Of a stretch of DNA of 64,000 bases, positions 40,154 to 54,019 are shown one piece after another. Origin of the DNA: Archangium violaceum (GTDB lineage Bacteria; Myxococcota; Myxococcia; Myxococcales; Myxococcaceae); assembly GCF_016887565.1 (NCBI RefSeq), contig NZ_CP069396.1:4367001-4431000 (forward strand), in the 5' to 3' direction. The notes under the pieces were generated by a model. The model did not search any database. It was not told the origin of the DNA and saw nothing but the letters and a program-made list of their open reading frames with translations. The first letter of the stretch is position 1. Each line of letters begins with the position of its first letter. The position numbers were made by a program, and so were the translations under genes.

Positions 40154-40801
40154 TCAGAACTCGATGACGATGCTGACCCGACCAGGCAGGTCCTGCTTCT
40201 GCTCGGGCTTCAGCCGGTAGCCCGGGCTGGAGAGGACGCCCAGGACGCAGTCGCGTTGCTTCCCGCTCAGCTCGCCGCCCGTTCCCACGGGCTCGAGCGC
40301 ATGGTCGGAGACGGAGCCGCTCGCGGCGTTCACCGCGGCCGTCCAGCGCAGGGCCCCGGGTCGCTCGGTCCCACTGAAGCACTGGGCCAGGCGCGGGCTG
40401 CGCGCCGCGACCTGAATGCGGAAGTCGTCCAGCCAGCTCGGCGAGGTCTGCGCCTCGTTCTGGTAGCTCCCCCGCCGCTGGCGCTCCATCCGATCGCTGA
40501 ATGCCTTCGGCTTGCTCGCGGGTGGCGCGGGCTTCTTCGGCTTCACCTCCGGCGCGGGTTCCACCACCGGCTCCGGTGGCGGCGCGGGCGGCGACGGCGC
40601 GCACTCACAGCGCACCAACATCGCCAGGAGCAGCAGCGCGGCGATCGTCACCACTCGACGAATACGTCTCCGCCTCTTCTCGCGTCGAACGGCTGGGATC
40701 TGCTCCACCCGCTCGCGTGTCGCCCGCCTCATGAGCTCCGCCGAGCGGCGCAGCTCCTTCTTGCGCCGGCGCAACTCGCGCCGAAGCTCCCTGGGGGTCA
40801 T
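40154..40801 (-). CDS. Single-pass inner-membrane protein with TonB-like C-terminal domain (operon gene 12)
   Basis: 215 aa from the ATG MTPRELRREL. The very basic cytoplasmic N part (RRRKKELRR) leads to one transmembrane helix (about 62-80, RVVTIAALLLLAMLV). A Pro-rich periplasmic spacer (PPAPPPEPVVEPAPEVKPKK) follows. The C-terminal domain of about 75 residues, with RLAQCFSG, GALRWTAAVN, GSVSDHALE and RVSIVIEF, has the strand and spacing pattern of TonB/AgmX-type C-terminal domains. Such proteins carry inner-membrane energy to outer-membrane partners. It overlaps the upstream gene by 4 bp and is the last gene of the operon that encodes a MotA/MotB-like pair. Confidence 0.72.
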   Translation of the reverse strand: MTPRELRRELRRRKKELRRSAELMRRATRERVEQIPAVRREKRRRRIRRVVTIAALLLLAMLVRCECAPSPPAPPPEPVVEPAPEVKPKKPAPPASKPKAFSDRMERQRRGSYQNEAQTSPSWLDDFRIQVAARSPRLAQCFSGTERPGALRWTAAVNAASGSVSDHALEPVGTGGELSGKQRDCVLGVLSSPGYRLKPEQKQDLPGRVSIVIEF

Positions 40802-42708
40802 TCGGTGAGCCTCCACCCGAAAATGAGTGCGCCCTTCGAGTCCCGCCACTCCACCGGCTCGAGCACGATCGGCGTGAAGACGGAGGGCGCCTCGGGCTCG
40901 GGCGGCCTGAAGGGCCATGGCAGCGGATCGGCTGGCGCGAGGCGGATGCTCCCGGCGAAGGTCGAGCGCGTGGGTGACAGCGCCCGCGCGTTCCCGCTCA
41001 CCGAGTCATCGAGGTGGCTCAGGCCGTCGAGGATCGACTGGGTCCGATCCATGAGCTCGCCGGCCGTCCGGCTCTGCGACTTCGCCGTCGTGGATTCGAC
41101 GGTCAGGGGCCGGAGCACGTCGAGCACGTGCTTGAGCGTCGGAACGTTGGCCCGGCGGACGTCCGCGTCTTCCGCTTCGATGTTCTCGAGGAGCTGTCGC
41201 ACGAACCTCAACACCGACGAGGGCTCCTCGGGGAGCGCGTTGCGCAGCCGCGTCGCCATCTCTCCCGGCTTGCCCCGCGACAGCGGCCGGAGCCGCTCGA
41301 TCGTCATGTCGAAGGCGCCACCGCGCCGGGCCGTCTGGATGATCCGCTCGAAGGAACGATCGTCTGCGCGCAGCGCCGCGCGCCAGACCAGATCCTCGAT
41401 GACCTGGTTGTATTCCTGCCGCGGAACCAGCGCCTTCAGCGTGGCGACGACCTCGTCGTTGGTCTCGTAGCGGGAGAGCACGTACGACAGCCACCTCCGT
41501 GCGAGCCCCAGGGTGACGGCCGCCTCGCGCGAGGTCTCGGCCTGCTGCATGGCGTACGCGAAGGATCGCAGCGACTCCTGCAGATCTCCCACCTCCAGGA
41601 AGCCCACGCCCCGGTGCAGCGCGACGACTGAGCGCTCGCGGAACCCGGTGCTCTCATCGAGCTCGAGGAGGCGCTTGCCTCGTTCGCCCGAGGTCAGCGC
41701 GCCGCGCAGCTCCGTCGAGTCGCTCGCTCCCACGAAACCGATCCAGGCCTCGAGCTCCTTCCCGTCCTTGCGGTGGATCAGCTCGTCGATGATCCCGAAC
41801 ATGAGCTCCTGGAGCGCGTCCGGATCCTTCGACAGCGGTTGTGCCCGGGCGAACAGGAACAGCCGCCGCTCCCGGTTCAGCGCCAGCCACTCCCGTGGGG
41901 TCCAGGTCAGGCTTCGTCGAAGGAACGCCGCCTGCGGCGAGTTCTCGGGGAAGGTCTCCAGCTTGCTCCGGAGCTCCGCCGCACCGGCCGCGGAGACGCC
42001 GGCCACCCGGGCCTGCTGCGCGATACTCCGAGCGTCGCGACGCGCCTTGCGCGCCTTCAGGTCCGCGAGCACCAGGTCGAGATCGAAGATGCGCGCCTCC
42101 ACCACCGACAGGTTCCGGACCTTCTCCCGCACCAGGGTGGCGCGCGACTCCACCAGCAGCTCACGCAGGAGCCCGCCCGCGTTCAGTCGATCCTCGAGGT
42201 CGAGGAACGGGGTCCGTCCGGACCGCAGCGCCATGGTGGCCGGCAGCAGACAGCTGGTCCGGAAGAAGGTCACGGAACGCAGCTCCTCCGCCGAGAGCAC
42301 GTCCTGCAGCGAGATGAACCGCTGCTGGCGCCCGACCTCGAAGACGTCCCACGGCGCGGGCATCGAGGGCGTCGGGCCTTTGCTGAGCCCGTGGACGACC
42401 ATGTTGTGCAGCCCCAGCGGCCAGAGGCCCGCGCCCTCTCGCTCGTCATCCTCGAACCCGTCCTGGCACAGCCCGAGGCTCCCGAGCGCTGCCCACACCA
42501 CGGAGCGGAATTCAGGATCATCTCGTGGGCGCTCGCCCTGCTGGAGAAGGCTGTTGCGAAGCAGCCACAGCTTGAGCACGTCCTCCGGACGATGGTCCCG
42601 GAGCGCGAGGCGCGCGTTGTAGAAGACCACGGTCTGTCTGGACTCCGTCGCCTCCGCGGCCGCGGCGCTCGACAACAGGCCAGCGATGATGGCGACGACC
42701 CAGCGCAT
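40798..42708 (-). CDS. Large exported helical protein, unknown (operon gene 11)
   Basis: 636 aa. The ATG at 42708 gives a signal peptide, MRWVVAIIAGLLSSAAAAEA. A longer in-frame stretch lies over the upstream gene and is rejected. The mature protein is almost entirely alpha-helical and charged, with TPR/HEAT-like helix pairs (VALHRGVGFLEVGDLQESLR, RRWLSYVLSRYETNDEVVAT). The C-terminal segment from about 590 is Pro-rich and beta-like (WPFRPPEPEAPSVFTPIVLE). It has no recognised family. It probably sits in the periplasm as a scaffold. Its ATG overlaps the stop of gene 10 by one base (TGATG) and its own stop overlaps gene 12 (ATGA). Confidence 0.75.
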   Translation of the reverse strand: MRWVVAIIAGLLSSAAAAEATESRQTVVFYNARLALRDHRPEDVLKLWLLRNSLLQQGERPRDDPEFRSVVWAALGSLGLCQDGFEDDEREGAGLWPLGLHNMVVHGLSKGPTPSMPAPWDVFEVGRQQRFISLQDVLSAEELRSVTFFRTSCLLPATMALRSGRTPFLDLEDRLNAGGLLRELLVESRATLVREKVRNLSVVEARIFDLDLVLADLKARKARRDARSIAQQARVAGVSAAGAAELRSKLETFPENSPQAAFLRRSLTWTPREWLALNRERRLFLFARAQPLSKDPDALQELMFGIIDELIHRKDGKELEAWIGFVGASDSTELRGALTSGERGKRLLELDESTGFRERSVVALHRGVGFLEVGDLQESLRSFAYAMQQAETSREAAVTLGLARRWLSYVLSRYETNDEVVATLKALVPRQEYNQVIEDLVWRAALRADDRSFERIIQTARRGGAFDMTIERLRPLSRGKPGEMATRLRNALPEEPSSVLRFVRQLLENIEAEDADVRRANVPTLKHVLDVLRPLTVESTTAKSQSRTAGELMDRTQSILDGLSHLDDSVSGNARALSPTRSTFAGSIRLAPADPLPWPFRPPEPEAPSVFTPIVLEPVEWRDSKGALIFGWRLTE

Positions 42709-43523
42709 CAGAGTGTCCAGCCCAGAGCGAGCGAGAGCTCCCACCAGAACCCCAGGCCTGATCCGGTGACGCCGCCCAACAGCGGCACGGCCAACATCGC
42801 CCGCGGCGAAAGGAAACCTCCGGACCCGAAGTACACGTCCACGGAGAGCCCCGCGAGGAGGCCATACCGGGCAGGGTCGACCTGCATGCCGCCCGGCCGC
42901 GAGGACTCGAGCTGCCCCAGCTCGTGGTCGGTGAGGCGCGGCGCGAGGAGCGAGGTGGCGACCTGCTGGAACTTCATGCCGCCCATCGACCCCGGGTAGA
43001 AGAGGTAGCGGAAGCCGGCGTTGGCCGAGAGCACCAGCTCGGTCGCGGGGAAGAAGCCGGGCAGCGTGGTCACCACGCCCTCCGCCAACGGGTGCCCGAC
43101 GTTGATGTCGAGCTCGAAGCGGCTGGGGCGGCCGTATTGGCGGTACGGCGTGAGCGCCAGCTTCTCGGTGCTGTCGGTTCCCCACGTGAACGCGCGGGTA
43201 ATGGCCACCTCTCCCATGAAGCTGCCGAACGGCTTGCGCGCCATGAGCCCAAGGCGGGTGCTGCCGAAGTTGTTCCGCTCGAGGAGGTCGCTGCCGATCA
43301 GCCCGAACCCGAGGGTGGACTTCCGCCAGTCGAAACGCACCGACTTCGAGGCCGCGCCGATCATCCGCTCGGTGAGCGCGTCGATCGGCGTGCGGAAGCC
43401 CTCCAGCGTGTCGTCGACCTTCTCGGGGTCGGAGGGGGAGGGGTCCGGGGCTTGCGCTTCCGCGGCCTGCGCGGCGCGCGGCAACGACAGGAGGACGAAG
43501 AGGACGAGGAGGCTACGGATCAT
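42708..43523 (-). CDS. Outer-membrane beta-barrel-like protein (operon gene 10)
   Basis: 271 aa from the ATG MIRSLLVLFVLLSLPRAAQA, a signal peptide, with GGAGG eight bases upstream. After a short charged region (about 20-60) the chain alternates hydrophobic and polar residues in strands ending in aromatic residues (KSTLGFGLIGSDLLE, FGSTRLGLMARKPFG, LVLSANAGFRYLFYPGS, YGLLAGLSVDVYFGSGG). It closes with a classical barrel C terminus, FWWELSLALGWTL. An outer-membrane barrel of about 8-10 strands is likely. It overlaps gene 9 by 11 bp and gene 11 by 1 bp, so it is co-translated. Confidence 0.75.
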   Translation of the reverse strand: MIRSLLVLFVLLSLPRAAQAAEAQAPDPSPSDPEKVDDTLEGFRTPIDALTERMIGAASKSVRFDWRKSTLGFGLIGSDLLERNNFGSTRLGLMARKPFGSFMGEVAITRAFTWGTDSTEKLALTPYRQYGRPSRFELDINVGHPLAEGVVTTLPGFFPATELVLSANAGFRYLFYPGSMGGMKFQQVATSLLAPRLTDHELGQLESSRPGGMQVDPARYGLLAGLSVDVYFGSGGFLSPRAMLAVPLLGGVTGSGLGFWWELSLALGWTL

Positions 43524-45516
43524 TCGGGAAGCCTCCGTCACCCGGCCGCGGGAACATCGGGCGATAGCACTGCATGCGGTAGGCGTCCCGGAAAAGCGCC
43601 TGGACGTTGTAGGTGGCGCTCGTATCGAACGTCGGGTGATCGCAGAAGCGCGTGCATTGCGCCAGGATGTCGCCCACGGGGAACTCGCCCGTCGTCCACG
43701 TCTCGCTGGCCCAGGTCTCCTCGCGGGAGCTGACGATTCCGAACGGCACGGTGAACGAGTAGGCCGTCGCGGCTCCGGCGAGATAGCTCTCGTATTTCGC
43801 CTTCAACAGGAACGGGAAGTCCCAGAACAGCCCGAGCGCATACGCGGGCTGCGGGGCCGACTGGTGCAGCTCGGGAAGCAGCCCGAGCCCTACCGGCTCC
43901 GGCGTGATCGGGGTGCGGAACACGATCTTCCCCTTGTCCGCGTCCGGGCAATAGGAGAACGCATCGCCCGGCTCCGCCGTGATGAGCTCGTTGTTGTAGA
44001 AGGTCGCGGTCCCGAACTCTCCCATCGGTATGTTGTCGGAGAGCGGCGTGTGCTCGGGCGCCCGGAACGACATCGAGGTCATCCTCCCCGCCTGGGCCTC
44101 CGAGTACTTCCCGATGAACCGGAGGTACTGCGCACGGGTCGTCAGGATCGGAATCTGATTGAAGCGGAACGGCCCGAGCTGGAGGTCGGGGATCTCCGAC
44201 ACCGCGGGGCAATTGCTCGACGCTTCCGCTGGGACCTCGTCGAGGTCGTCGACCGGGTGGTTGGGTGGACACCACAACACCAGTCGCCGGAGTTCCGGGC
44301 GATTGGTGTTGTGCACCACGCTGTCGTAGACGAAGGCACCGGTGACTCGCGGCGAGCTCTTGTCCCGCTCGAAGGGCAGCACTTTCTGGAGCGCCTCCTC
44401 GAGCACGGTGGCCAGCCGGCCCGTCGTGTCGTCGTGATGGAGACCCAGCACGAGGACCATGTCCCGCCCCTGCATCCGCACCTGATCGATCCGCGTGCGG
44501 AACTGGGCTGCGAGCACGTCGGCGAACCCGCGAGCGTTCCAGTCGTCGATGCAGATCTCCGGAGCATCCTCGAGGAAGAGGCGCTGCTCCTGCATCTTGT
44601 AATGCGGCGAGGAGATCGTCCGTCGGCATGGGCTCAACATGAGCTTGATCGGGGTGTTCTCGGTGATCGGGCTGCGCAGGACCGGGAAGGCCGGGCGGAC
44701 CAGCGGGTTCTTTCGCGCCAGCGCCACCGCCTCGAAGGTGCCCCCCTGTGCATCGGTGACGGTCGAGCGCGCACAGACGACCGGGGACTCGGACGCCGAC
44801 AGCGGAAGCGTGCCCACGTCGAACACGGCCCGATCGGTGGTCTCCACCGGTCCGAAGTCCAGCGGCGGCAGCGCTCCCGGACAGCCCGGAACCGAACCGT
44901 AGCCGTACGGGTTCTGGCCGAAGTTCGCGGCGATGGCGCCGTGCCGCCGGTCGGAGATGGAGAAGTGGCGCCGCAGCCCGTACTTCTGCACGTCGTGGTT
45001 GCGCAGTGTCGGGAACTGGTGCCGGGCGCGCCATTGCACGTGCGTGTTGGTCTCGTCGAACACGCCGTACACCAGCAGGCTCCGGTTCGTGTGCGCCGGC
45101 CCCCTGCCGATGACGTTGATGACCACGCGCGCGTTCAGCGCCATCTCGCCGTCACGGTGGTAGCGCAGCCGCAACCTCACGGCGCGCGGCGGCTCGCCAA
45201 GCGCCAGGCTGGTGCTGCCGCACACGCTCTTGGGGCCGCAGTCGACCGGAACGTGGGTGTGAACCGTGCTGAGCTGTGACAGAGGCGTCCAGGGCAGCTC
45301 GAAGTGATCGGTGCGGACCGTGAGCTCGATCTGGCTCTCGGGCCCCAGCCCCTGCTCGGCGTTGGCCTGGTAGAAGACGAAGAGCGTGTCCTCCTCCTCG
45401 AACCAGGCCACGTCCGCGAGCGAGAAGCCCGCGTTGATGTCGACGATCGGCACCTTCTCGCAGGCGGCGACCGCGATGGCGATGACCCCGATGATCAGCA
45501 GGCGCGCGCGGCCCAT
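43513..45516 (-). CDS. Large lipoprotein, unknown (operon gene 9)
   Basis: 667 aa from the ATG MGRARLLIIGVIAIAVAAC, a lipoprotein signal with lipobox VAAC; AGGAGGGG lies nine bases upstream. The mature part is rich in beta structure, Pro, Asn and Cys (VPVDCGPKSVCGS, SVPGCPGALPP, ALPTR-like segments). It includes regions such as DMVLVLGLHHDDTTGRLATV and FRTPITPEPVGLGLLPEL, but has no recognised domain. Thirteen or so cysteines suggest several disulfides, consistent with an outer-membrane, periplasmic or surface location. It starts 14 bp after gene 8 and overlaps gene 10. Confidence 0.75.
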   Translation of the reverse strand: MGRARLLIIGVIAIAVAACEKVPIVDINAGFSLADVAWFEEEDTLFVFYQANAEQGLGPESQIELTVRTDHFELPWTPLSQLSTVHTHVPVDCGPKSVCGSTSLALGEPPRAVRLRLRYHRDGEMALNARVVINVIGRGPAHTNRSLLVYGVFDETNTHVQWRARHQFPTLRNHDVQKYGLRRHFSISDRRHGAIAANFGQNPYGYGSVPGCPGALPPLDFGPVETTDRAVFDVGTLPLSASESPVVCARSTVTDAQGGTFEAVALARKNPLVRPAFPVLRSPITENTPIKLMLSPCRRTISSPHYKMQEQRLFLEDAPEICIDDWNARGFADVLAAQFRTRIDQVRMQGRDMVLVLGLHHDDTTGRLATVLEEALQKVLPFERDKSSPRVTGAFVYDSVVHNTNRPELRRLVLWCPPNHPVDDLDEVPAEASSNCPAVSEIPDLQLGPFRFNQIPILTTRAQYLRFIGKYSEAQAGRMTSMSFRAPEHTPLSDNIPMGEFGTATFYNNELITAEPGDAFSYCPDADKGKIVFRTPITPEPVGLGLLPELHQSAPQPAYALGLFWDFPFLLKAKYESYLAGAATAYSFTVPFGIVSSREETWASETWTTGEFPVGDILAQCTRFCDHPTFDTSATYNVQALFRDAYRMQCYRPMFPRPGDGGFPNDP

Positions 45517-45530
45517 CCCGTCCACCCCTC

Positions 45531-47399
45531 CTAGGAGATGATCTCCGCGAAGGAGACCTTCCCTCGCGCGACCTGCTTCTTCACGGCCGAGATCAACTCG
45601 TTCTGGCCGCGCCGCGCGGCCCTGAGCTGCTCCTCGCGCGAGACGAACGACATGTTGGCGCGGATGGCGCTCTGCATCGCCGGCGCGAGCCGCGCGATGA
45701 AGCTCTCCTGCCACGCGGGCTGTTGCACCGAGGACCAGCCGGCGAGCCCCCGGACGTCGACGTCGAGCAGCAGGTCCCTCTGGAGCTCGTCGGGCAGCTT
45801 GAGCAGCATGTCGCCGTAGAGGATGTCCTGGTACCAGAGCGGCAGCGTCCCGCCGGAGCGCCCCAGCGCCCGCGCGAACAGCGAACCGCGCTCGGAGGAT
45901 TCGATCAGCGGCAACAGCACCGAGAGCGCACCGGCGGCGTCGAACTGGCGACCCCGGTCCAGGATGCCCTGGGCCGGAGGCGCCGGGGGAAGCGGCTTCC
46001 CCGCGCGCGCGGCGTCGAGCACCTCGAACAGGTGGACCGTCTCCTCCTTCGAGATGCGGTTGGACGCGAGCAGCTCGTTGGCGATCCGCACCCGCAGCTC
46101 GGGCGACATGATCCGCGCCACGTCCTGCTGGCAGTCGGTGGGCACGTGCCCGAACAGCAGCGCCCCATGACGTGGCGACAGGCTGTCGATCAGGTTCGCC
46201 ACGCCGTTGGAGCCGAACTCCTCGCGGAGGCTGCGGTACACCTCGGCGTCCGCCTGGGCCATCAGCGTGGAGGAGATGGCGTGCTGGTTCAGCAATCGGA
46301 AGAACTCCGCGTCCGAGAGCAGCGCCTTCTCGTCCACCGTCTTCAAATACCCGGCGAACTCCACCTTGCGCACGGCGAGCTCACCGTCCGAGGTGAAGGC
46401 CAGGGACAGCCGATCGCCGAAGACGAAGATGGCCTTGGCCAGCAGCTCGAACTCGCCGGCCTTCAGCCAGTCGCGCAGCAGCTCCACCACCACGCTCTCG
46501 CCCTTGGCCAGCTCGGCCTGGGCGATCCGGTCGTTCCACAGCTGCTGCTGGGCCGTGACGAACGCGGTCTCCGCGTCTTCTTTGGAAGGCGCCGGGTCCG
46601 CCCCGTCTGGAGATGGCTCCTCGGCGTTCGGGGGTGTCTCGGCCTCCGCCGGCTTGTCGAGCGAACCCGCCGCGAGCTGCGCCGCCAGCGCCTTCTCCTC
46701 GAGCGTCTCTCGCCCAAGGCGACGCAGGGCCCAGATGACGGTCAGCGTCGCCATCGTCAACATGACCAACGCGATCATCCACGAGAAGTGCGGAAGCAGG
46801 CTGACCCAGAGCTCGCGCAGCGCGACGCCGGCTTCCCACGTCGGCGGCGCCGGCGGCTCCACCGGCTTCTCCTCGACCACCGGCGCCGGAGGCTTCGGGG
46901 GCTCGGGCGGAGGCGGAGACTCGCGCAGTCCCGGAGAGATCGGCTGGAGGATCTGCCGACCGACCTTCACCTTGAGCCAACCCTTCGACAGCCGCTGCTC
47001 GAGGCGCCGGACCAGGGCCTGGACGTCCTGGGTGGGGACCGATTTCTCGTGGGTGAACTCGCACTGCGCCTGCGTCAGGTACTCCTGCGGCGGCACGCTG
47101 CCGGGGCCTTCGGTCTGGCCGAGCCCGGGCAGCGAGCTGGTGCGCGGCATGTCGACGGTGACGTGGTCGCGGTAGACACAGCCCTTGGAGAAGCAGCGCT
47201 CGGGGGCGCAGTCCTGTGCCAGCGCGAGATCGAACTGACTCTCGAGCGTGCGCAGCTCCAGGAGGACGGGCGAGGGGACATGGCTCTGCGGCACCGGCGC
47301 CGGCGCGTCAGGGAGGCTGGTACCAGCCGGGGGTTGGGTCTGGGCCGACGCCACGGTGCTCAACGCGACCCAGGCGACGAGGACGGCGAAACGTCTCAT
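45531..47399 (-). CDS. Single-pass membrane protein with cytoplasmic FliG-like torque domain (operon gene 8)
   Basis: 622 aa. Signal peptide 1-19; periplasmic part about 20-195 with four cysteines and a Pro-rich stretch; one transmembrane helix at about 201-226 (LLPHFSWMIALVMLTMATLT); cytoplasmic part 230-622. The cytoplasmic part follows the FliG middle/C-terminal order. SPRHGALLFGHVPTDCQQDV...SPELRVRIANELL matches the FliG-M pattern PQTIALILSHL...P.elr..v..r. Then GILDRGRQFDAAGALSVLLP matches GGvkavaeILn, and YQDILYGDMLLKLPDELQRD plus LLLDVDVRGLAGW matches FEDLL.LDDR.IQ.LLREVD..dLA.AL. Charged residues occur along the torque-helix segment. The layout mimics a FliF-FliG fusion with a small periplasmic part. 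It overlaps the MotB-like gene by one base. Confidence 0.78.
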   Translation of the reverse strand: MRRFAVLVAWVALSTVASAQTQPPAGTSLPDAPAPVPQSHVPSPVLLELRTLESQFDLALAQDCAPERCFSKGCVYRDHVTVDMPRTSSLPGLGQTEGPGSVPPQEYLTQAQCEFTHEKSVPTQDVQALVRRLEQRLSKGWLKVKVGRQILQPISPGLRESPPPPEPPKPPAPVVEEKPVEPPAPPTWEAGVALRELWVSLLPHFSWMIALVMLTMATLTVIWALRRLGRETLEEKALAAQLAAGSLDKPAEAETPPNAEEPSPDGADPAPSKEDAETAFVTAQQQLWNDRIAQAELAKGESVVVELLRDWLKAGEFELLAKAIFVFGDRLSLAFTSDGELAVRKVEFAGYLKTVDEKALLSDAEFFRLLNQHAISSTLMAQADAEVYRSLREEFGSNGVANLIDSLSPRHGALLFGHVPTDCQQDVARIMSPELRVRIANELLASNRISKEETVHLFEVLDAARAGKPLPPAPPAQGILDRGRQFDAAGALSVLLPLIESSERGSLFARALGRSGGTLPLWYQDILYGDMLLKLPDELQRDLLLDVDVRGLAGWSSVQQPAWQESFIARLAPAMQSAIRANMSFVSREEQLRAARRGQNELISAVKKQVARGKVSFAEIIS

Positions 47400-48025
47400 C
47401 AGTAGATCCTCACGACGACACGGCGGTGCCGGGCCAGGCGCTCGTCTTCGCTCAGGCCCTTCAGCAGTTGTTCGGGGAGCGGCTTCGTCTCGGCGTAGCC
47501 CTCGACGCGGATGCGCGAGCGGTCGAGCCCGACCTCCTCCAGCCGCTGCCGCACCACGATGGCGCGCGCGCTGGAGAGCTCCCAGTTGCTCGCGAACACT
47601 CCACCGCTCACGATCGGTGTCGAGTCGGTGTGCCCCTCGACCGCGAAGTTGTACTTCGAGGAGTACGGCACGAGCTCCTTCAGCATCGACGCCACGGTCT
47701 CCTCGAACTCCGGCCGGATCTTAGCCTTCCCCGAGTCGAACACGAGCCCGGAGTTGAGGGACACCTCCAGCCCCGCATCGGTCACCGTGGTGGTCACGAG
47801 ATTCTGCAGGTTCTTGGCGGCGATCTGCGCCTCGAGCTCCTTGCGGATCGACTCCAGGCTCGCCGGGCTCTGCTTGCCGGAGATGCTCTGGGCGATCTGC
47901 TGCATCTTCAGCTTGCTGAAGTTCGCCGCGGTCAGCAGCACCACGAAGAACAGCAGCAGGTTGGTGATCAGATCGGCATAGCTGAGTAGCCAGCTCTCCT
48001 CATGCCCTGCTTTCCGTCTTTGCAT
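47399..48025 (-). CDS. MotB-like stator protein with OmpA-type peptidoglycan-binding domain (operon gene 7)
   Basis: 208 aa. The N-terminal helix carries the MotB signature WLLSYADLITNLLLFFVVLL; Asp18 is in the position of the ion-carrying aspartate. A plug/linker region follows (about 35-75), then an OmpA/MotB domain from about 100: NSGLVFDSGKAKIRPEF, VEGHTDSTPI and SSARAIVVRQRLEEVG, which bind peptidoglycan. It pairs with the MotA-like gene 9 bp upstream to form an ion-driven stator. MotB rather than TolR/ExbD type is indicated by the full OmpA domain and the SYADLIT motif. Confidence 0.92.
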   Translation of the reverse strand: MQRRKAGHEESWLLSYADLITNLLLFFVVLLTAANFSKLKMQQIAQSISGKQSPASLESIRKELEAQIAAKNLQNLVTTTVTDAGLEVSLNSGLVFDSGKAKIRPEFEETVASMLKELVPYSSKYNFAVEGHTDSTPIVSGGVFASNWELSSARAIVVRQRLEEVGLDRSRIRVEGYAETKPLPEQLLKGLSEDERLARHRRVVVRIY

Positions 48026-48034
48026 GGCTCACCA

Positions 48035-48742
48035 TCACCGCTCGCCGCGGGAGACGATCTCGTTGACGCTCTTCTCGCACCGCTCGAGCAACCCCAGGCG
48101 GTCGTCGAGCAGCCCGTTGAGGTAGTGCCCGATCGGCCCGGCCACGCCAGCGCCGAACGCCACGCCGTACAGGGTCGCGAGCAGTGCCAGCGACATCGCC
48201 GCGCCGATGTTGAGGTTCTCCGAGCTCATGTTGCGGAAGAGCTGGATCATGCCGGTGATGGTGCCGACCATGCCGAACGCCGGCCCCAGCTTGGAGAGCA
48301 TCTCCCAGTTGTGGATCGCCGGCTGCCACCGGCTGATCTCCTCGTGCCGCAGCTCGGTGAAGGTCTTGTTGCTGGAGGCTTCGGTCGCCCGGTTGAGAAT
48401 CAACTCCAGCATCTGCTTCACCGCGGGGAAGCGGCTGTTCGCGGCCAGATCGACCGCCTGGCTGCGCTTGCCGTCGCGCCACAGCGCGGACAGCTGATCG
48501 CGCTCGGCCTCCATGGCCCGGGTGGTCCGGCCGAACAGCGCCAGTCCGGGGAGCAGCTCACGCAGGCACAGGATGGTGCGCCACGCGGTGGTGTGGCTGG
48601 AGCTCACCAGCACCGCCGAGCACGACCCGACCAGCACCATCACGAGCGCGTGGGCGTCGAACGCGGAGATGACCGCGTCACTGCGATCCTTGAACCCGTA
48701 CCAGATGATGAAGCCCAACAACACGAACCCGATGATCTGCAC
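48035..48742 (-). CDS. MotA/PomA-like stator ion-channel protein (operon gene 6)
   Basis: 235 aa starting at a GTG (48742) with AGGAGAA eight bases upstream. Four transmembrane helices: about 1-18, 31-50, 150-172 and 185-208. The cytoplasmic loop between helices 2 and 3 holds the charged RDQLSALWRDGKRSQAVDLA segment. The channel signature GPAFGMVGTITGMIQLFRNM and ALLATLYGVAFG matches PomA/MotA. It carries torque through its cytoplasmic loop to a FliG-like partner, and a FliG-like protein is encoded two genes downstream. No other flagellar genes are nearby. Confidence 0.92.
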   Translation of the reverse strand: MQIIGFVLLGFIIWYGFKDRSDAVISAFDAHALVMVLVGSCSAVLVSSSHTTAWRTILCLRELLPGLALFGRTTRAMEAERDQLSALWRDGKRSQAVDLAANSRFPAVKQMLELILNRATEASSNKTFTELRHEEISRWQPAIHNWEMLSKLGPAFGMVGTITGMIQLFRNMSSENLNIGAAMSLALLATLYGVAFGAGVAGPIGHYLNGLLDDRLGLLERCEKSVNEIVSRGER

Positions 48743-48757
48743 GACGTGCTTCTCCTG

Positions 48758-49387
48758 TCACTGCTGGCGCTGGAGCTCTTCGAGCTTCTTGCGGACGCCC
48801 GGCTCACTCTCGATGGCTTCGACCTGCTCGTAGATTTGGATGGCCTTCTCGCGCTCCCCCATCATCAGGAGCAGCGACCCCTTGGCCCGCAGGAACTCGG
48901 GGTGCGACTTGTAGCGTGCCAACACGGTCTCACACCACTCGAGAGCCAGGTGGTAGTTGCCCTCGCGGGTGGCCTGCTCCATCAAGGTGCGCGCGCGGGT
49001 GATGCTCACCTCCGGCGCCTCTTCGTCGATGCGCAGGCCGCGCGCCCGGTAGGCCTCGATGAGCGCCTTGTCCGCCGCGGAGGGCGGCGGTGGCACCAGC
49101 CGGCTGGCGGGGATGGTCTTCACGTCGCCGTTGCCCGCGCCGTGCTCGATGACGATGCGCTGACCCGTGGCCAGCATGGGCACGTCGACCTCGGTCATCA
49201 GGTTGCCGTCGTTCCAGCGGACCTTCATCACCGTGGTCGAGCCGAATCCGAAGGGCCGCACCAGTGTCCCTTCCTCCTTGAGCGCCTCGGGCTTCTTCGG
49301 CGCCGGCTCGACCAGGTAATAGGTGTAGTTCCGCGTCGCGCAAGCGGAGGCCAGGAGCGGCAGCAGGATGAGCAGGACTCGGTTCAT
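48758..49387 (-). CDS. Lipoprotein with TPR-like C-terminal part (operon gene 5)
   Basis: 209 aa. The ATG overlaps the stop of gene 4 (ATGA). The signal MNRVLLILLPLLASAC has a lipobox. Residues about 35-110 form an SH3-like beta segment (EEGTLVRPFGFGSTTVMKVR, GQRIVIEHGAGNGDVKTIPA). About 140-205 is helical and TPR-like (GNYHLALEWCETVLARYKSH, MMGEREKAIQIYEQVEAIES). Probably outer-membrane anchored, facing the periplasm, where it could dock the MotB-like peptidoglycan-binding protein encoded two genes on. That partnership is inferred from position only. The family is not recognised. Confidence 0.75.
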   Translation of the reverse strand: MNRVLLILLPLLASACATRNYTYYLVEPAPKKPEALKEEGTLVRPFGFGSTTVMKVRWNDGNLMTEVDVPMLATGQRIVIEHGAGNGDVKTIPASRLVPPPPSAADKALIEAYRARGLRIDEEAPEVSITRARTLMEQATREGNYHLALEWCETVLARYKSHPEFLRAKGSLLLMMGEREKAIQIYEQVEAIESEPGVRKKLEELQRQQ

Positions 49388-50346
49388 GGCAGGAAGGGCA
49401 GGGCGGTGATGTTCATCAGGGAGATCCCGAAGCCGATTCTCCCATTGGTGGACGCGGTGAACGTGACGCCGTAGTTCGAGCTGGCGATCGGCAGGCGCAC
49501 CACGAAGACGGCGGTCAGCAGCGGGTCGATGATCTCGGTCGTCTGGCCGCCGATGCCGCTGGCGATGGCCGTGGGCACGCTCAGCAGGACCTTGGCGCCG
49601 ACCATGATGTTCAGCGCGTTGGGGATGACGCGGTAGTAGGCGCCGCCCACGCCAATCAGCGGGTCGTAGGCGGAGAGGGACAAGCCGGCGAGGTTCGCGT
49701 TGGTGTCGCCCCACTGCTCCGCGAAATCCAGGGAGATGTGCTGGCCGGGGTACATCGTCACGTCGAGGAACGTGTGGGTGAGGCTGTCTCCCCGCGCGCG
49801 CCGCTCCAGCTCCTCGGTGAGGGTGAAGTTGCGGCGGGTGCGGGCCAGCTCGGTGAGCCCCGGGTCGAAGTTCTGCACGAACACGATGCGGCTGTTGTGC
49901 AGATTGATGATGCGCAACGAAACGCCCTCCAGCGTCTCGTCGAGCCAGATCGCCACCCGGGCCGGCGGGGCCTTTCCACGTGCGTTCTCGTCCAGCCGGA
50001 TGATCTCCTCTGTTCCCAGCGTGGTCGTGAACTGCTCGAGCCGGCCCTCCTCCACGAACAGGCGCGACGCCATGCACGCCTCGCAGGAACGGAGCGCGGC
50101 GGAGCCGAACACGCGAACCAGGGTCTGCAACGCGGCGGTCGGGTACCAGGCTCTCGACTCCTCGAAAGCCGGCGAGACGCTCACCACGATGGCGGGAGTC
50201 ACGTCCTTCAACGCGATCCCGCCCTGCTCCAGGCGCAGGGTGAGGGTCTCCTCCACCCGGGCGAGCGCCTCGCGCGAGGTGTCACGCTGGGCGAGGGCCA
50301 CGGTCGGCAGCAACACGGCGAGGAGTGCGAGGCGCGTCAGAAGCAA
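49384..50346 (-). CDS. Exported protein, CxxC-motif domain plus beta-barrel-like C part (operon gene 4)
   Basis: 320 aa, starting at a TTG (50346) with GGAGG seven bases upstream, overlapping gene 3 by 10 bp. The frame is open well upstream, but over gene 3. The TTG gives a good signal peptide, LLTRLALLAVLLPTVALAQ. An alpha/beta domain (about 20-190) contains SAALRSCEACMASRLF and RVAIWLDETLEGVSLR. A beta-rich C-terminal part follows (SLSAYDPLIGVGGAYYRVIP, SSNYGVTFTASTNGRIGFGI), ending hydrophobically. A paralogue of gene 3 by layout and by the matching CxxC block. It may form an outer-membrane ring or pore. Confidence 0.75.
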   Translation of the reverse strand: MLLTRLALLAVLLPTVALAQRDTSREALARVEETLTLRLEQGGIALKDVTPAIVVSVSPAFEESRAWYPTAALQTLVRVFGSAALRSCEACMASRLFVEEGRLEQFTTTLGTEEIIRLDENARGKAPPARVAIWLDETLEGVSLRIINLHNSRIVFVQNFDPGLTELARTRRNFTLTEELERRARGDSLTHTFLDVTMYPGQHISLDFAEQWGDTNANLAGLSLSAYDPLIGVGGAYYRVIPNALNIMVGAKVLLSVPTAIASGIGGQTTEIIDPLLTAVFVVRLPIASSNYGVTFTASTNGRIGFGISLMNITALPFLP

Positions 50347-51542
50347 AACGTCACCTCCGCGCCCACCGTGTGGAACTTCAGGATGTCGAGCAGGTTCAGG
50401 TGGGCACCGACCGAGGGCGCATTGTCGAGCGCCGGCGCGGACTCGAGGAACACCGAAGCCCCGATGCGATTCCCGACGCGCAGCTCGAGCCCGATCGGAA
50501 ACGCGGCGAAGGTGGCGTGGGGCTGGACGAGCAGCTGCGGGATGTTGGAGAGGACATCCTCCAGGTTCAGCACCTGGTTCTGGAACACCCGCGCGCCCTG
50601 CCCGTGGATGGAGATCACGGAGCCGCCCACGAAGACGTAGAGATCCGGCCGGGTGAGCGATGCGACCGAGCCGGTGAGCAGGCGGGAGATGCGCGCCTGC
50701 GCCATGAAGCCCGTGTGCAGTTGGGGCATCCAGGTGACGCCCGCCGAGATGGTGCCGGTCCAGGCCCGTGCCTGGGTGAGCGCCATCTCGGTCCCGACCT
50801 GTAGCCAGATGAAGGGCATCGCCGCGACCGCGGTTCCGTTGGATGGCGGGCCGTAGCTCCGCACCGCGATGCGCATCGGCACGGTGAACACGCCGCGGCC
50901 CTGGAGGGCGTCGAGGTACTCCTTGCGCGCCTCGGTCGCGCTCTTGAGCTGGTCCCCCGAGCGCAGCAGCGCTGGCGACGACGTGGAGGTCGTGAGGGTC
51001 CGCGCGTGGATGATCGGCAGCGCAGGCTCTAGCGAGGTGATGCGGGCGCGCAGCACCAGCGCGCTGCCTTCCGCCTCGAAGTCGAGGAAGATCGCATGGC
51101 GCGCACCGGAGAGCGCGCCCGCGGCGGCCAGCGCTTCCGGCTGGTCCACGCCGCGGGAGACGATCGTCCCCTTCGCGCCCGAGTGCACCATCACCGCGGT
51201 GCACTGCGGGCAGTGCGCCAGGGTCAGCCGGGTGCGCGGGTTCTTCACCACCAGGTTGGCGAAGTGGTTCTCGATCAGGGCCGCCAGTCCACTGCCGAAT
51301 CCCACCGGCACGGTGACGTCGGCGAGCACCACCGGCGTCTCCAGCTCGAAGACCGGCTGCTGCGTCCAGCCGTAGACGAGCTCGTCGAGCAGGTCGTACG
51401 CCTGAAGCTGGATCTGCCCCGCCACCTCCGCGCGGAGCTTCTCCATCTGCGCCCGCTGCGCCTCGGCGACCTCCGGGGCCACCGCCGCCCACGACGACGA
51501 GGAGACCAGCGCGAGCGCGAGTGCGAGAAGCGCCGGCCTCAT
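50337..51542 (-). CDS. Exported protein, CxxC-motif domain plus beta-barrel-like C part (operon gene 3)
   Basis: 401 aa from the ATG MRPALLALALALVSSSSWA (ATGA overlap with gene 2; another in-frame ATG at 51551). An N-terminal alpha/beta domain of about 220 residues holds GFGSGLAALIENHFANLVVK, then RLTLAHCPQCTAVMVHSGAK with a CxxC as in gene 4, and HAIFLDFEAEGSALVLRARI. The layout resembles CsgG/FlgO-type outer-membrane ring subunits, but similarity is only in pattern. The C-terminal part alternates as a barrel (GTEMALTQARAWTGTISAGV, HAT.AAFPIGLELRVGNRI) and ends in VGAEVTFCF, a barrel-type terminus. Confidence 0.76.
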   Translation of the reverse strand: MRPALLALALALVSSSSWAAVAPEVAEAQRAQMEKLRAEVAGQIQLQAYDLLDELVYGWTQQPVFELETPVVLADVTVPVGFGSGLAALIENHFANLVVKNPRTRLTLAHCPQCTAVMVHSGAKGTIVSRGVDQPEALAAAGALSGARHAIFLDFEAEGSALVLRARITSLEPALPIIHARTLTTSTSSPALLRSGDQLKSATEARKEYLDALQGRGVFTVPMRIAVRSYGPPSNGTAVAAMPFIWLQVGTEMALTQARAWTGTISAGVTWMPQLHTGFMAQARISRLLTGSVASLTRPDLYVFVGGSVISIHGQGARVFQNQVLNLEDVLSNIPQLLVQPHATFAAFPIGLELRVGNRIGASVFLESAPALDNAPSVGAHLNLLDILKFHTVGAEVTFCF

Positions 51543-52180
51543 CGCAGCCATCTCCACTCTCCATTCAGACACAGTCCGGCGTGGAGCTGCGTCTCCCGTT
51601 CGTCGATCAGCATGATCCCCAGGAACGCGTCGTTCTCGCCGAGCGCGCGTTGAGCGAAGTAGCGCTTGCACGCCAGCGGATAGGCATCCTTCGGCGCCAT
51701 CCGGCCGAGCACCGCGATGTCGCCCGCGGCGAGGACCGGAACCTTGTCGGAGACCCTGCGTCCCTGCTCGGCGAGCTCGGTGCGCGCCGCCACCGAGATC
51801 TTCGCCGCCACCTCGGGCTGGGGATAGAAGGCGTCGACGTGCCAGTTGAGCTCGCCCGGCCCCAGCGCGCTGGCGACCTCGGCGATCTCTCCCACCGACT
51901 CGCGCAGCGAAGCGAGGATGACTTCGTCGCGCTCCGGCCGCTCTCCATCGCGCATGATGCGCCGGGTGCAGATGAGCGCCTCGGACTCCTGGTTCGCCAT
52001 GCGCGCGAGCGGCGCGGGGATTTCACCCGGGTGGAGCTCATGCGCCCGCTGCTGGCTCACGCGCGAGCAGTCGAGATTGCGCGCCTCTGACTTGTCGTGC
52101 CAGATGCCGGGCGCGGGGTCGTACGGGCGCCCCGAGGACACCGAGAGTTGCACCAGGAGGAAGACCAGCAGGGTTTCCAT
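51539..52180 (-). CDS. Exported protein, unknown (operon gene 2)
   Basis: 213 aa from the ATG METLLVFLLVQLSVSSG, a signal-like N-terminus. It overlaps the stop of gene 1 (TAATG). The mature region is mostly helical with four cysteines (LDCSRVSQQRAHE, ALICTRRIMRDGE, YPLACKRYFAQR, HAGLCLNGEWRW). This suggests two disulfides and a periplasmic site. The VPVLAAGDIAVLGRMAPKDA segment looks like a beta hairpin. No family recognised. Position between a lipoprotein and the two CxxC proteins suggests it is an assembly partner of that outer-membrane group. Confidence 0.72.
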   Translation of the reverse strand: METLLVFLLVQLSVSSGRPYDPAPGIWHDKSEARNLDCSRVSQQRAHELHPGEIPAPLARMANQESEALICTRRIMRDGERPERDEVILASLRESVGEIAEVASALGPGELNWHVDAFYPQPEVAAKISVAARTELAEQGRRVSDKVPVLAAGDIAVLGRMAPKDAYPLACKRYFAQRALGENDAFLGIMLIDERETQLHAGLCLNGEWRWLR

Positions 52181-52923
52181 TATGGCTCCGTGCCCGTCTG
52201 GCGCTGTTCGCCCCCGCCCTGAGAACGGGGCTCGAACGAGCGCAGCACTTCGGAGCGGACCCGCGCGTTGAAGGCGAGCTGGCTCAGCTGTGCATAGAAG
52301 TCGCGCGAGAAGTCCCGCGCCGGCGCCTCGCCCGTGAGCTCCTCCTCCGGTGGGCGCACGAGGGCGTCGAGCACCCAGTTCACGCCCCAGATTCCGGCGC
52401 CGAAGTACTCGATGAAGCGCGCCTTCAGGCTGTCGGATGCGAGCAGGAACCCGCTCGCGTCGCGAATGGTCACGTCCTGCGCGACACTGTACTCCGTGAA
52501 GGCCGGCACGATCGTGAATGAGAGGGCCGTGAGGGCCCACAGCGGGCCGCTGCTCTCCTTGTGGAGGAGCCGCGACGACAGATCGACGACCAGGTCGGGC
52601 TGGGTGCCCTCTTCGAGGCTCCGCGACGATCTGCCATTGCGTGGCACGTCGGTTTCGACCTTCGCGCCCTGGTTTCGGAACAGCGCGCCGACCCTGCGGC
52701 AGAGCAGCTCGGCGTCGCTCGCCTTGAGGTAGTCCCCCGGGACGCAGCGCACGAGCAGGCGCATGCCCTCGAAGTTCGCGAGCCGCGGATCGACGATCGC
52801 CGGGCGCTGCAATGAGCTGAGCGGCTGGTACACGGTGACGCAGCCGGAGAGCAGCGCGCCCAACAGCAGCACCCGGCCCGCGTTACTCGCCGTGCACCTG
52901 GATTTCACAGCACGACTCGTCAT
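52180..52923 (-). CDS. Lipoprotein, first gene of the motor-like operon (operon gene 1)
   Basis: 247 aa from the ATG at 52923. The signal includes VLLLGALLSGC with a lipobox. The mature part has an alpha/beta pattern, with cysteines in LLVRCVPGDYLK and AELLCRRVG, then RNQGAKVETDVPRNGRSS, PDLVVDLSSRLLHKE and QDVTIRDASGFLLASDSLKA. The arrangement is similar to LpoB/GNA1162-type or CsgG-like periplasmic lipoproteins that sense or gate envelope assemblies, but no match is certain. The operon promoter should lie in the 163 bp upstream. A TTG start 7 codons earlier is possible. Confidence 0.74.
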   Translation of the reverse strand: MTSRAVKSRCTASNAGRVLLLGALLSGCVTVYQPLSSLQRPAIVDPRLANFEGMRLLVRCVPGDYLKASDAELLCRRVGALFRNQGAKVETDVPRNGRSSRSLEEGTQPDLVVDLSSRLLHKESSGPLWALTALSFTIVPAFTEYSVAQDVTIRDASGFLLASDSLKARFIEYFGAGIWGVNWVLDALVRPPEEELTGEAPARDFSRDFYAQLSQLAFNARVRSEVLRSFEPRSQGGGEQRQTGTEP

Positions 52924-53086: not shown

Positions 53087-54019
53087 TCACCGCTCCCCCC
53101 TCCTCTCCCACGGTGGCGAGCCCGCGTACCGCTCCGCGAGGAAGGAGACGAAGGCCCGCACCTTTGACGGCACCAGCCGCCCCGGCGGATGCACCGCGAA
53201 AATGCCGGTGTCAGGCACGGACCACCCCTCCAGCACCCGCACGAGCCGCCCGGCGCGCAGGTCCTCCGCGATGAGGAACGTGGCCAGCACGGAGACACCA
53301 CAACCCGCCACTGCCGCCTGCCGCAACGCCTCGGCGTTGTCCGCGACGAGCGCCGGGCGGCCTCGTGCGGTCACCTGCTCTTCCCCCCTCTGAAGGTTCC
53401 ACGACTGACCGTCCGACAGCAGGCTGAAGTAGAGACACGCGTGGTGCGCGAGGTCCTCCGGCTTGGCCAGCGGCCGCCGGCCCCGGAGGTAGGAGGGGGC
53501 CGCGACGATGAGGCGGTGGTTCGTCGCGAGCCGGCGCACCACGAGGCTGGAGTTGGTGAGCGCGCCGATGCGGATGGCCACGTCGAACCGCTCCTGCACG
53601 AGGTCCACGTAGCGGTCCATGAACGAGAACTCCAGCCCGATGCGCGGGTAGCGGCGCAGGAAGTCCGGCAGCAGCGGCGCCACCTGGAGTTGGCCGAACA
53701 GGTTGGGCACGGCCACCCGCAACCGCCCCCGGGGCTCCCCCGCCAGGCCCGAGACGAGCGCCTCCGCGTCCTCCACGCGGGTGAGCACATCGGTGCACCG
53801 CTCCAGGTACAGCGTCCCGGCTTCCGTCAGCGACACGTGACGCGTGGTGCGCCGCAGGAGCGCGGTGCCCAGCGCGTCCTCCAGCCGGGCGATGCGCCGG
53901 CTCAGGGAGGAGGCGCTGATGCCCAGCTCGCGCGCCGCGTCCACGAAGCTCAGCGCCCGCGCCACCGCCGTGAAGCTGAGCATGTCCTCCAGCCGGTCCC
54001 TCAGTGCCACGCGCTCCAT
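53087..54019 (-). CDS. LysR-family transcriptional regulator
   Basis: 310 aa. Winged helix-turn-helix at about 9-70 (FTAVARALSFVDAARELGIS, LSRRIARLEDALGTALLRR, RHVSLTEAGTLYLERC), then the periplasmic-binding-like effector domain (GRLRVAVPNLFGQLQVAPLL, DVAIRIGALTNSSLVVRRL, GVSVLATFLIAEDLRAGRL) and a typical end VPSKVRAFVSFLAER. CrgA/AaeR-type subgroup. GGAGGAGC precedes the ATG. It is divergent from the SDR/SMP-30 pair, with 160 bp between the starts, the usual layout of a LysR regulator with its target operon. The inducer is probably an intermediate handled by those enzymes. Confidence 0.94.
   Translation of the reverse strand: MERVALRDRLEDMLSFTAVARALSFVDAARELGISASSLSRRIARLEDALGTALLRRTTRHVSLTEAGTLYLERCTDVLTRVEDAEALVSGLAGEPRGRLRVAVPNLFGQLQVAPLLPDFLRRYPRIGLEFSFMDRYVDLVQERFDVAIRIGALTNSSLVVRRLATNHRLIVAAPSYLRGRRPLAKPEDLAHHACLYFSLLSDGQSWNLQRGEEQVTARGRPALVADNAEALRQAAVAGCGVSVLATFLIAEDLRAGRLVRVLEGWSVPDTGIFAVHPPGRLVPSKVRAFVSFLAERYAGSPPWERRGER

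Follow-up and report, generated by a model that had tools for sequence, protein, structure and literature searches.

Here, we report a tightly packed set of twelve minus-strand genes (g1 to g12, positions 40154-52923) in a 64,000-nucleotide stretch of the 13.2-Mb, single-contig Archangium violaceum genome (contig NZ_CP069396.1, positions 4,367,001 to 4,431,000; hereafter the window). We consider it probable that this operon encodes an ion-driven trans-envelope machine that reuses a flagellar-type stator-rotor pair. FliG and flagellar-type MotAB are treated as parts of the flagellum; we infer that the present machine works like the stator-rotor core of a flagellum and is itself not a flagellum. 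Its parts, their topology and their co-inheritance are established by sequence or model, as laid out below.

All twelve genes are real coding genes, because the codon-position GC (guanine plus cytosine) content, taken in windows of 300 bp, changes phase at every proposed gene boundary, giving twelve minus-strand genes, and because all of them recur, at 40-67% identity, at locus L062 in a genome outside the window's class. With refined starts, the intergenic gaps are -1, -13, -10, -4, +15, +9, -1, +14, -11, -1 and -4 bp; the coordinates of g9 to g12 in Table 1 are refined ones, the new g11 start being an ATG followed by a signal peptide and the new g12 start giving a 4-bp overlap with g11. The first-pass annotation had proposed a twelve-gene minus-strand operon, and the GC phase, the gaps (-13 to +15 bp) and the collinear recurrence described next bear it out. 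A promoter and terminator scan gave one promoter-like site against 0.4 expected and three terminator-like sites against 4.3 expected. The LysR gene at 53087-54019, 163 bp upstream, was considered as a thirteenth part and rejected: it had matches in 1/27 and 2/27 loci, i.e., it is not conserved with the operon.

Conservation was followed in a sample of 195 Myxococcota genomes. A search with g8 matched 29 of these genomes (14 of 90 genera), 27 of them strongly; the two weak matches (G095, E 5.6e-4; G166, E 1.9e-4) are excluded from the 27. In the reciprocal search with g9, these 27 genomes and none of the others matched strongly; weak g9 matches in G052 and in a second row of G062 are excluded. 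The 26 genomes besides the window's own gave 27 loci, one operon being split over two contigs. In 27/27 loci the genes found are collinear on one strand, and 17 hold all twelve; the ten others stop short where their contig ends (0-66 bp remain on the side of the absent genes). A second scan of species genomes with two short peptide patterns, not an exhaustive set, gave 27 loci (27/27 collinear, 13 with all twelve) that overlap the first set and are not additive to it. At L089 and L095, unrelated genes come after g1-g8; loss of g9-g12 is ruled out there, as g9-g10-g11-g12 stand intact and in order elsewhere in both genomes. In the genome of L093, g9-g12 are located on another contig, adjoining the remainder of g8. 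In the part of the flanks that was compared, a single gene recurs in at least five other loci; it lies downstream, and its seven loci all belong to one genus. Of the flanking proteins, 20 from 11 other loci were scanned, and none matched a flagellar family at E <= 0.001. This strict conservation indicates that the twelve genes form one unit, and synteny across Myxococcota, suggested as a check at first pass, is thereby found. Please note that two class I loci come from records titled Bifidobacterium breve (L088) and Silvanigrellales (L094); both are short contigs, likely mislabelled or mis-binned, or, for L094, a real transfer.

The stator pair is encoded by g6 and g7. Pfam assigns g6 to MotA_ExbB (57.7 bits, cut-off 22.9), its profile aligns over residues 4-207 to MotA 8ucs (E 2.9e-13), and 10/10 of its PDB sequence matches at E < 1e-3 are MotA or PomA. 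Residues E147, P154 and P203 are invariant in 19/19 sequences. The spacing of seven between E147 and P154 equals that of the flagellar MotA rows, and the corresponding Glu is absent from the class II and III rows compared (these related operon classes are described below; the operon of the window belongs to class I). We equate E147/P154, putatively and on our own account, with the Glu-Pro motif of transmembrane (TM) helix 3 described in PMC12505986. That work marks flagellar-type stators (FIT) by this motif and a MotA layout spanning all TM helices, by a square fold whose torque-generating interface has at least four helices, and by a MotB in which a long plug-linker leads from the TM helix to an OmpA domain. 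The g7 product scores above cut-off for MotB_plug (54 bits) and OmpA (55.5 bits) and matches MotB 6ysl at E 2e-29; its channel Asp18 is invariant in 20/20 sequences, and about 65 residues separate the end of the TM helix (31) from the start of the OmpA domain (96). In a 44-sequence tree, which took in seven of the nine other PF01618 genes of the window genome and to which L149 contributed no MotA open reading frame, the MotA-type sequences (classes I, II and III and flagellar) are split from these seven paralogues with 100/100 support. Within the MotA side, class I forms a group at 91/91, class II at 98/94, and class III together with the flagellar rows at 89/98 (the flagellar rows alone, 57/59); classes I and II fall outside the flagellar rows, with the order among groups unsettled and a long-branch warning attached. 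Judged by profiles, invariant residues and tree, g6 and g7 are MotA/MotB of the flagellar type, not of the TolQR/ExbBD type. The earlier assignment of a MotA-like gene at 48035 and a MotB-like gene with an OmpA domain at 47399 is thus upheld by Pfam matches over cut-off, and so is the proposed distinctness from AglRQS and ExbBD (by the tree) and from Zorya (by a model scan).

Zorya resembles the operon in having a MotA/MotB-like pair outside flagella, and g7 matches ZorB models (best 3.7e-19), as a MotB might. An anti-phage defence of the Zorya kind is nevertheless hardly credible here: among the ten proteins scanned (g10 and g12 left out) the MotB-type match was the sole one, with no ZorA or further Zorya model, and a fixed twelve-gene content with exported and outer-membrane proteins is unlike Zorya.

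The candidate rotor protein is g8. It starts with a signal peptide and a periplasmic domain, which a Pro-rich linker joins to a single TM helix; the helical part that follows is taken as cytoplasmic. Its AlphaFold2 model has a mean pLDDT (predicted local distance difference test) of 75.9 and a pTM (predicted template modelling score) of 0.43. Searched with Foldseek at E < 1e-3, the model returned 8/8 PDB chains from FliG or flagellar C-ring/motor entries, some of these chains being taken as FliG from their length. The middle and C-terminal domains together superimpose on 4fhr with a VIA Z of 11.1 and a root-mean-square deviation (rmsd) of 11.3, the latter probably due to domain orientation; the C-terminal domain alone fits the FliG C-domain 1qc7 with Z 10.4 and rmsd 2.2 over 88 residues. 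Within the limits of a predicted structure, residues 385-617 are confirmed to have the FliG middle plus C-terminal fold. At first pass a FliG-like cytoplasmic domain had been proposed for the 45531 membrane protein, with a missing FliG-fold match named as the outcome that would speak against it; the fold is present in the model, while the sequence match stays below cut-off. The signal peptide and TM helix are g8's own, unlike the soluble, FliF-docked FliG. In the periplasmic domain, Cys 64, 69, 74 and 113 are kept in 24/24 sequences. We also observed an LPGL-type motif with these four Cys in residues 64-113, and a KLPG-type motif at a like place in class III.

Two further operon classes, new here, link g8 to FliG. 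Class II (E < 1e-90, 14 of 20 genomes listed) is found in 14/195 genomes and class III (E < 1e-40, 8 of 38) in 8/195; with these thresholds, classes I to III together occur in 48/195. The class II operon has up to ten families. In the 11 loci examined, the first family occurs in 7 and the ninth in 9, against 10 or 11 for the seven families that run from the second to the FliG-like one. The class II operons at L112/L131 (G062) and L132-L141 hold MotA, MotB, FliG-like, g3-, g5- and g12-like parts and lie in genomes without a flagellin match. Profile pairs between classes I and II reach 96.8% for g3, 95.9% for g5, 98.6% for g6, 100% for g7 and 94.5% for g12, and the FliG-like proteins 95.8-98.1%; all hhalign probabilities given here are single-pair values. 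The next pairings lie lower (IId-g4, 70%; IIG-g1, 29%), so by profile comparison class II and the operon of the window share six part families. The FliG-like protein scores over the Pfam FliG_C cut-off (23.3) in 2/2 class II proteins scanned (27.8 and 33.5 bits) and in 3/3 of class III (49.4-71.3 bits). Class III pairs with canonical FliG at 98.8%, and class II with class III at 96.5%. In the alignment, made without L096, class III keeps the SKR-type and acidic positions of the torque helix and class II keeps the charges in part. Because this stepwise profile chain runs from FliG through classes III and II to class I, it supports common descent of the g8 cytoplasmic part with FliG.

Each of the five class III loci whose neighbours were inspected (L106-L110) encodes a FliG-like protein that has its own signal peptide and TM helix, an adjoining further protein, MotA and two different MotB proteins. 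The N-terminal part of the FliG-like protein is weakly FliF-like, and YscJ_FliF_C matches below cut-off occur in two of three class III proteins (5.5e-4 and 0.011). The further protein pairs at 94.7% with the class II TPR lipoprotein and at 13.9% with g5; the one scanned had no Pfam match. It is possible, and we offer it tentatively, that the three classes in 48/195 Myxococcota form a wholly new superfamily of envelope machines: flagellar-type stators would power a natural rotor of the FliF-FliG type, made of one chain, and this rotor would turn an assembly at the outer membrane, not a filament.

On the outer-membrane side, the AlphaFold2 model of g3 (mean pLDDT 72.3, pTM 0.45) has two recognizable parts. 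Residues 49-190 match 4q6z (VIA Z 12.2, rmsd 3.4 over 126) and 4q6l (Foldseek 2.5e-4), and residues 218-404 match OprF 4rlc (Z 15.4, rmsd 2.2 over 126) and OmpA 1bxw (Foldseek 6.8e-6). We therefore model g3 as an LpoB-like domain plus an OmpA-type barrel at the outer membrane. Three lipoproteins had been predicted at first pass; g1, g5 and g9 are borne out as such by their N-terminal signals, with the lipobox Cys conserved in 20/20, 26/26 and 27/28 sequences, and the lipobox pattern is seen in 16/20, 22/26 and 22/28, respectively. Of the several outer-membrane or periplasmic beta proteins that had also been proposed, g3 is supported by its model. Searches of Pfam, NCBIfam and PDB gave no convincing family for g4, g10 or g12. 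For g4, no Pfam match fell below E 0.05 among 12 family members; its direct profile comparison with g3 gave 1.8-5.8%, against 70% with class II IId. The TonB-like end ascribed to g12 holds for its layout, and no significant family match was found, the TonB model (E 0.037) falling on the linker. In class II, the homologue of g12 weakly matches the AgmX/PglI tail (E 0.0034, 17.5 bits, cut-off 40).

These parts also invite comparison with Tol-Pal and Ton, which likewise have an inner-membrane ion motor, a TonB-shaped transducer and an outer-membrane target. MotA/MotB-type subunits and the TonB-shaped g12 could energize an outer-membrane barrel (for import, lipid handling or envelope upkeep), with g8 as a channel-positioning scaffold and no rotor. 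The g12 layout, the AgmX/PglI tail match of its class II homologue, the barrel of g3, the peptidoglycan-binding MotB and the TPR lipoprotein all fit such an energizer. However, the stator is of the MotA type and falls in a different tree group from TolQ/ExbB, family scans of the twelve proteins found no TolB, Pal or TonB-dependent receptor, and the FliG fold of the extra protein g8 would be left unexplained; we regard this explanation as unlikely.

Several observations weigh against simple FliG membership of g8 or against a reused stator-rotor pair. The sole Pfam match of g8 is MgtE_N (20.4 bits, below the cut-off of 25.9), with no FliG family over cut-off; direct hhalign of g8 gives 8% with canonical FliG and 21.7% with class III; and the class I rows of the alignment lack the charges of the FliG torque helix. 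For the periplasmic domain, MS-ring chains reach VIA Z 7.9-8.8, on a par with MamM, OsmC and further chains at about 8 (families absent from the VIA lists are not thereby excluded); the best MS-ring chain, 8z5v, which suggests a FliF S-ring likeness, reaches Z 8.8 with rmsd 4.5 over 99. A Pro-rich, poorly predicted linker stands between this domain and the TM helix. The operon has no FliM or FliN gene, the TonB likeness of g12 is one of layout (one TM helix, Pro-rich linker, C-terminal domain), the g12-like last family of class II is present in only 6/11 loci, and no gene in the operon names the output.

The first of these points could indicate that g8 is a clutch, plug or load sensor, in which an ARM-type domain like that of FlgY and MgtE_N docks MotA/MotB to an envelope structure and gates ion flow with no rotation. 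Among 24 g8-family members at E <= 1, MgtE_N is matched in 22 (best 6.2e-8), FliG_C in seven (best 0.0024) and FliG_M in two (best 0.0034), making MgtE_N the strongest family match, and the loss of torque charges would suit a non-rotating part. According to PMC11870540, the MS-ring of a flagellar motor is encircled by a ring of FlgY, a protein with an MgtE_N-type domain. The best g8 folds, however, are FliG across the middle and C-terminal domains, and the class II and III relatives match FliG_C over cut-off, so that we consider a clutch improbable. As an MgtE transporter, g8 was rejected: it has an MgtE_N-like stretch and no CBS or transport family match, and the best folds of the model are those of FliG.

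Flagellin is used to count flagella in the carrier genomes, because many low-scoring rows of the FliG_C tally (77/195) look like MgtE by length and position, although these were not checked singly; that tally was therefore discarded. The lineage had been called usually non-flagellated, which does not hold: flagellin occurs in 51/195 Myxococcota and in 13/27 class I carriers, 0/14 class II and 2/8 class III genomes, and it is lacking in the window genome and in all six genomes of its genus. The machine thus occurs both with and without flagella. In G150, contig C39 (L056, 105.6 kb) has matches to flagellin, FliG and FHIPEP beside the operon, the flagellin about 19 kb from g1. The twelve further carriers with flagellin have their listed flagellin matches on contigs other than the operon's. 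The earlier statement that flagellar genes are missing is true of the twelve genes beyond MotA/MotB; flagellar genes in homologous operons, which would have told against it, were seen neither in the twelve genes nor in the 20 flanking proteins. The window genome has no FliG_C over cut-off, and it does have two FHIPEP export-gate matches and one FliM match over cut-off, one FHIPEP about 10 kb from FliM. At C1:3844847-3862812 of this genome (locus L009, outside the window), a FHIPEP export gate, a FliM match and a sub-cut-off FliG_C match lie within about 18 kb. The FHIPEP/FliM cluster of the window genome is probably a non-flagellar type III secretion cluster.

One could regard the operon as remnants of a lost flagellum kept for surface sensing, given its MotA, MotB and FliG-like parts, the grouping of class III stators with flagellar ones (89/98), and the flagellin of 13/27 carriers, in one of which (G150) it shares a contig with the operon. 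The twelve parts are, however, kept as a set, also outside the window's class, and the stators of classes I and II lie outside the flagellar ones in the tree, although the group order is unsettled. We consider such a decayed system very unlikely.

The operon resembles the flagellar motor in the MotA/MotB type, the channel Asp, the OmpA domain and the FliG middle and C-terminal fold. It is unlike the flagellar motor in having no FliF, FliM, FliN, export gate, rod, hook or filament gene, in joining its FliG-like part to a periplasmic domain and TM helix of its own without torque-helix charges, and in carrying nine other part families. The Glt complex of Myxococcus comprises outer-membrane barrels, lipoproteins, TPR and TonB-shaped proteins. 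Agl-Glt (AglRQS, GltA-K) is thus like the operon as an ion-driven motor with such partners, and unlike it in that the operon has a MotA-type stator and a FliG-like partner; the sole family link seen is the class II AgmX/PglI tail match. GldLM of type IX secretion is likewise a rotary ion motor that drives surface structures without flagella, to our knowledge with no FliG-like partner. PMC13104615 calls GldLM not homologous to MotAB, and PMC12505986 groups AglRS with generic (TolQR/ExbBD-side) transporters and treats the stators of flagella as a single group that arose one time, for flagella. The literature matches listed, in which subscription papers are thinly covered, hold no description of this operon or of a non-flagellar MotAB-FliG machine.

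We propose that ion flow would turn the MotA pentamer, as in the flagellum, and that MotA would work on g8, which may stand in for FliF and FliG in one chain; g8 or g12 could then transmit force across the periplasm to g3 and its partners. As output, mechanical work on the outer membrane or at the surface of the cell would be most likely, because the operon has apparent force-passing and outer-membrane parts and no ATPase, export gate, pilin or filament gene was recognized among the twelve; gliding-like movement or rearrangement of surface complexes is only the likeliest option. The ion-driven envelope machine conceived at first pass therefore stands as to its flagellar-type stator, FliG-fold partner with membrane anchor, outer-membrane part and conserved unit, and falls short as to a literal MotAB pushing on FliG, the torque-helix charges being absent. 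If our proposal is right, cultured genera (Archangium, Hyalangium) offer a twelve-gene system for asking what a MotAB-FliG-type motor does besides turning a filament, and one more would be added to the few known routes for inner-membrane energy to the outer membrane. A conserved MotAB-FliG machine without a flagellum would also bear on whether the motor preceded the filament and its export apparatus. Should classes I and II truly lie outside the flagellar stators, they would show that a stator-rotor pair works without an export apparatus, and may descend from a pre-flagellar motor.

Table 1. Genes of the operon and their parts (window coordinates; aa, amino acids)
Feature	Position	Strand	Basis
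g1, 247-aa lipoprotein	52180..52923	-	lipobox LSGC, Cys28 in 20/20; in operon
g2, 213 aa, possibly exported (N-terminus by eye)	51539..52180	-	in operon; no Pfam match; no hydrophobic stretch over threshold
g3, 404-aa outer-membrane protein, common to class II	50337..51551	-	AlphaFold2 model; C-terminal Phe; class II homologue
g3 residues 49-190, LpoB-like periplasmic domain (modelled)	50982..51407	-	VIA and Foldseek
g3 residues 218-404, OmpA-type beta barrel (modelled)	50340..50900	-	VIA and Foldseek
g4, 320 aa, N-terminal hydrophobic stretch	49384..50346	-	class II IId profile match, 70%
g5, 209-aa TPR lipoprotein, common to class II	48758..49387	-	TPR matches to 6.9e-5, below cut-off; class II homologue
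g6, MotA-type ion-channel subunit, 235 aa	48035..48742	-	Pfam, PDB profile alignment, invariant residues
g7, MotB-type subunit, TM Asp18 and OmpA peptidoglycan-binding domain	47399..48025	-	MotB_plug and OmpA over cut-off
g8, 622-aa membrane-anchored FliG-like protein	45531..47399	-	AlphaFold2 model, Foldseek, VIA
g8 residues 38-154, periplasmic domain with four invariant Cys and a fold resembling ring-building motifs	46938..47288	-	VIA
g8 residues 199-217, single TM helix, C-terminal flank more basic	46749..46805	-	hydropathy, charge
g8 residues 385-617, FliG middle and C-terminal domain fold, taken as cytoplasmic	45549..46247	-	Foldseek, VIA
g9, 667-aa lipoprotein	43513..45516	-	lipobox Cys; same 27 genomes as g8
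g10, 271 aa, exported (signal peptide by eye), possibly beta-rich	42708..43523	-	refined start; no family
g11, 636 aa, exported	40798..42708	-	signal peptide at refined ATG; no confident family
g12, 215 aa, one TM helix, Pro-rich linker, C-terminal domain (TonB-shaped), common to class II	40154..40801	-	layout; class II homologue

Outside the operon, a gene of about 577 amino acids lies downstream of g12 on the opposite strand in seven loci (L054 and L056-L061), all of the genus labelled g26, and its product has a marginal Omp85 match (24.7 bits, cut-off 24). In the window itself, an alpha-2-macroglobulin-type protein of 1371 amino acids is encoded downstream of the operon on the opposite strand (35184-39299, plus strand), and among the flanks compared such a gene is near the operon only in L040. 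Farther on, at 32774-34246 on the minus strand, a 490-amino acid protein has a MopE-type copper-binding motif (40.4 bits).

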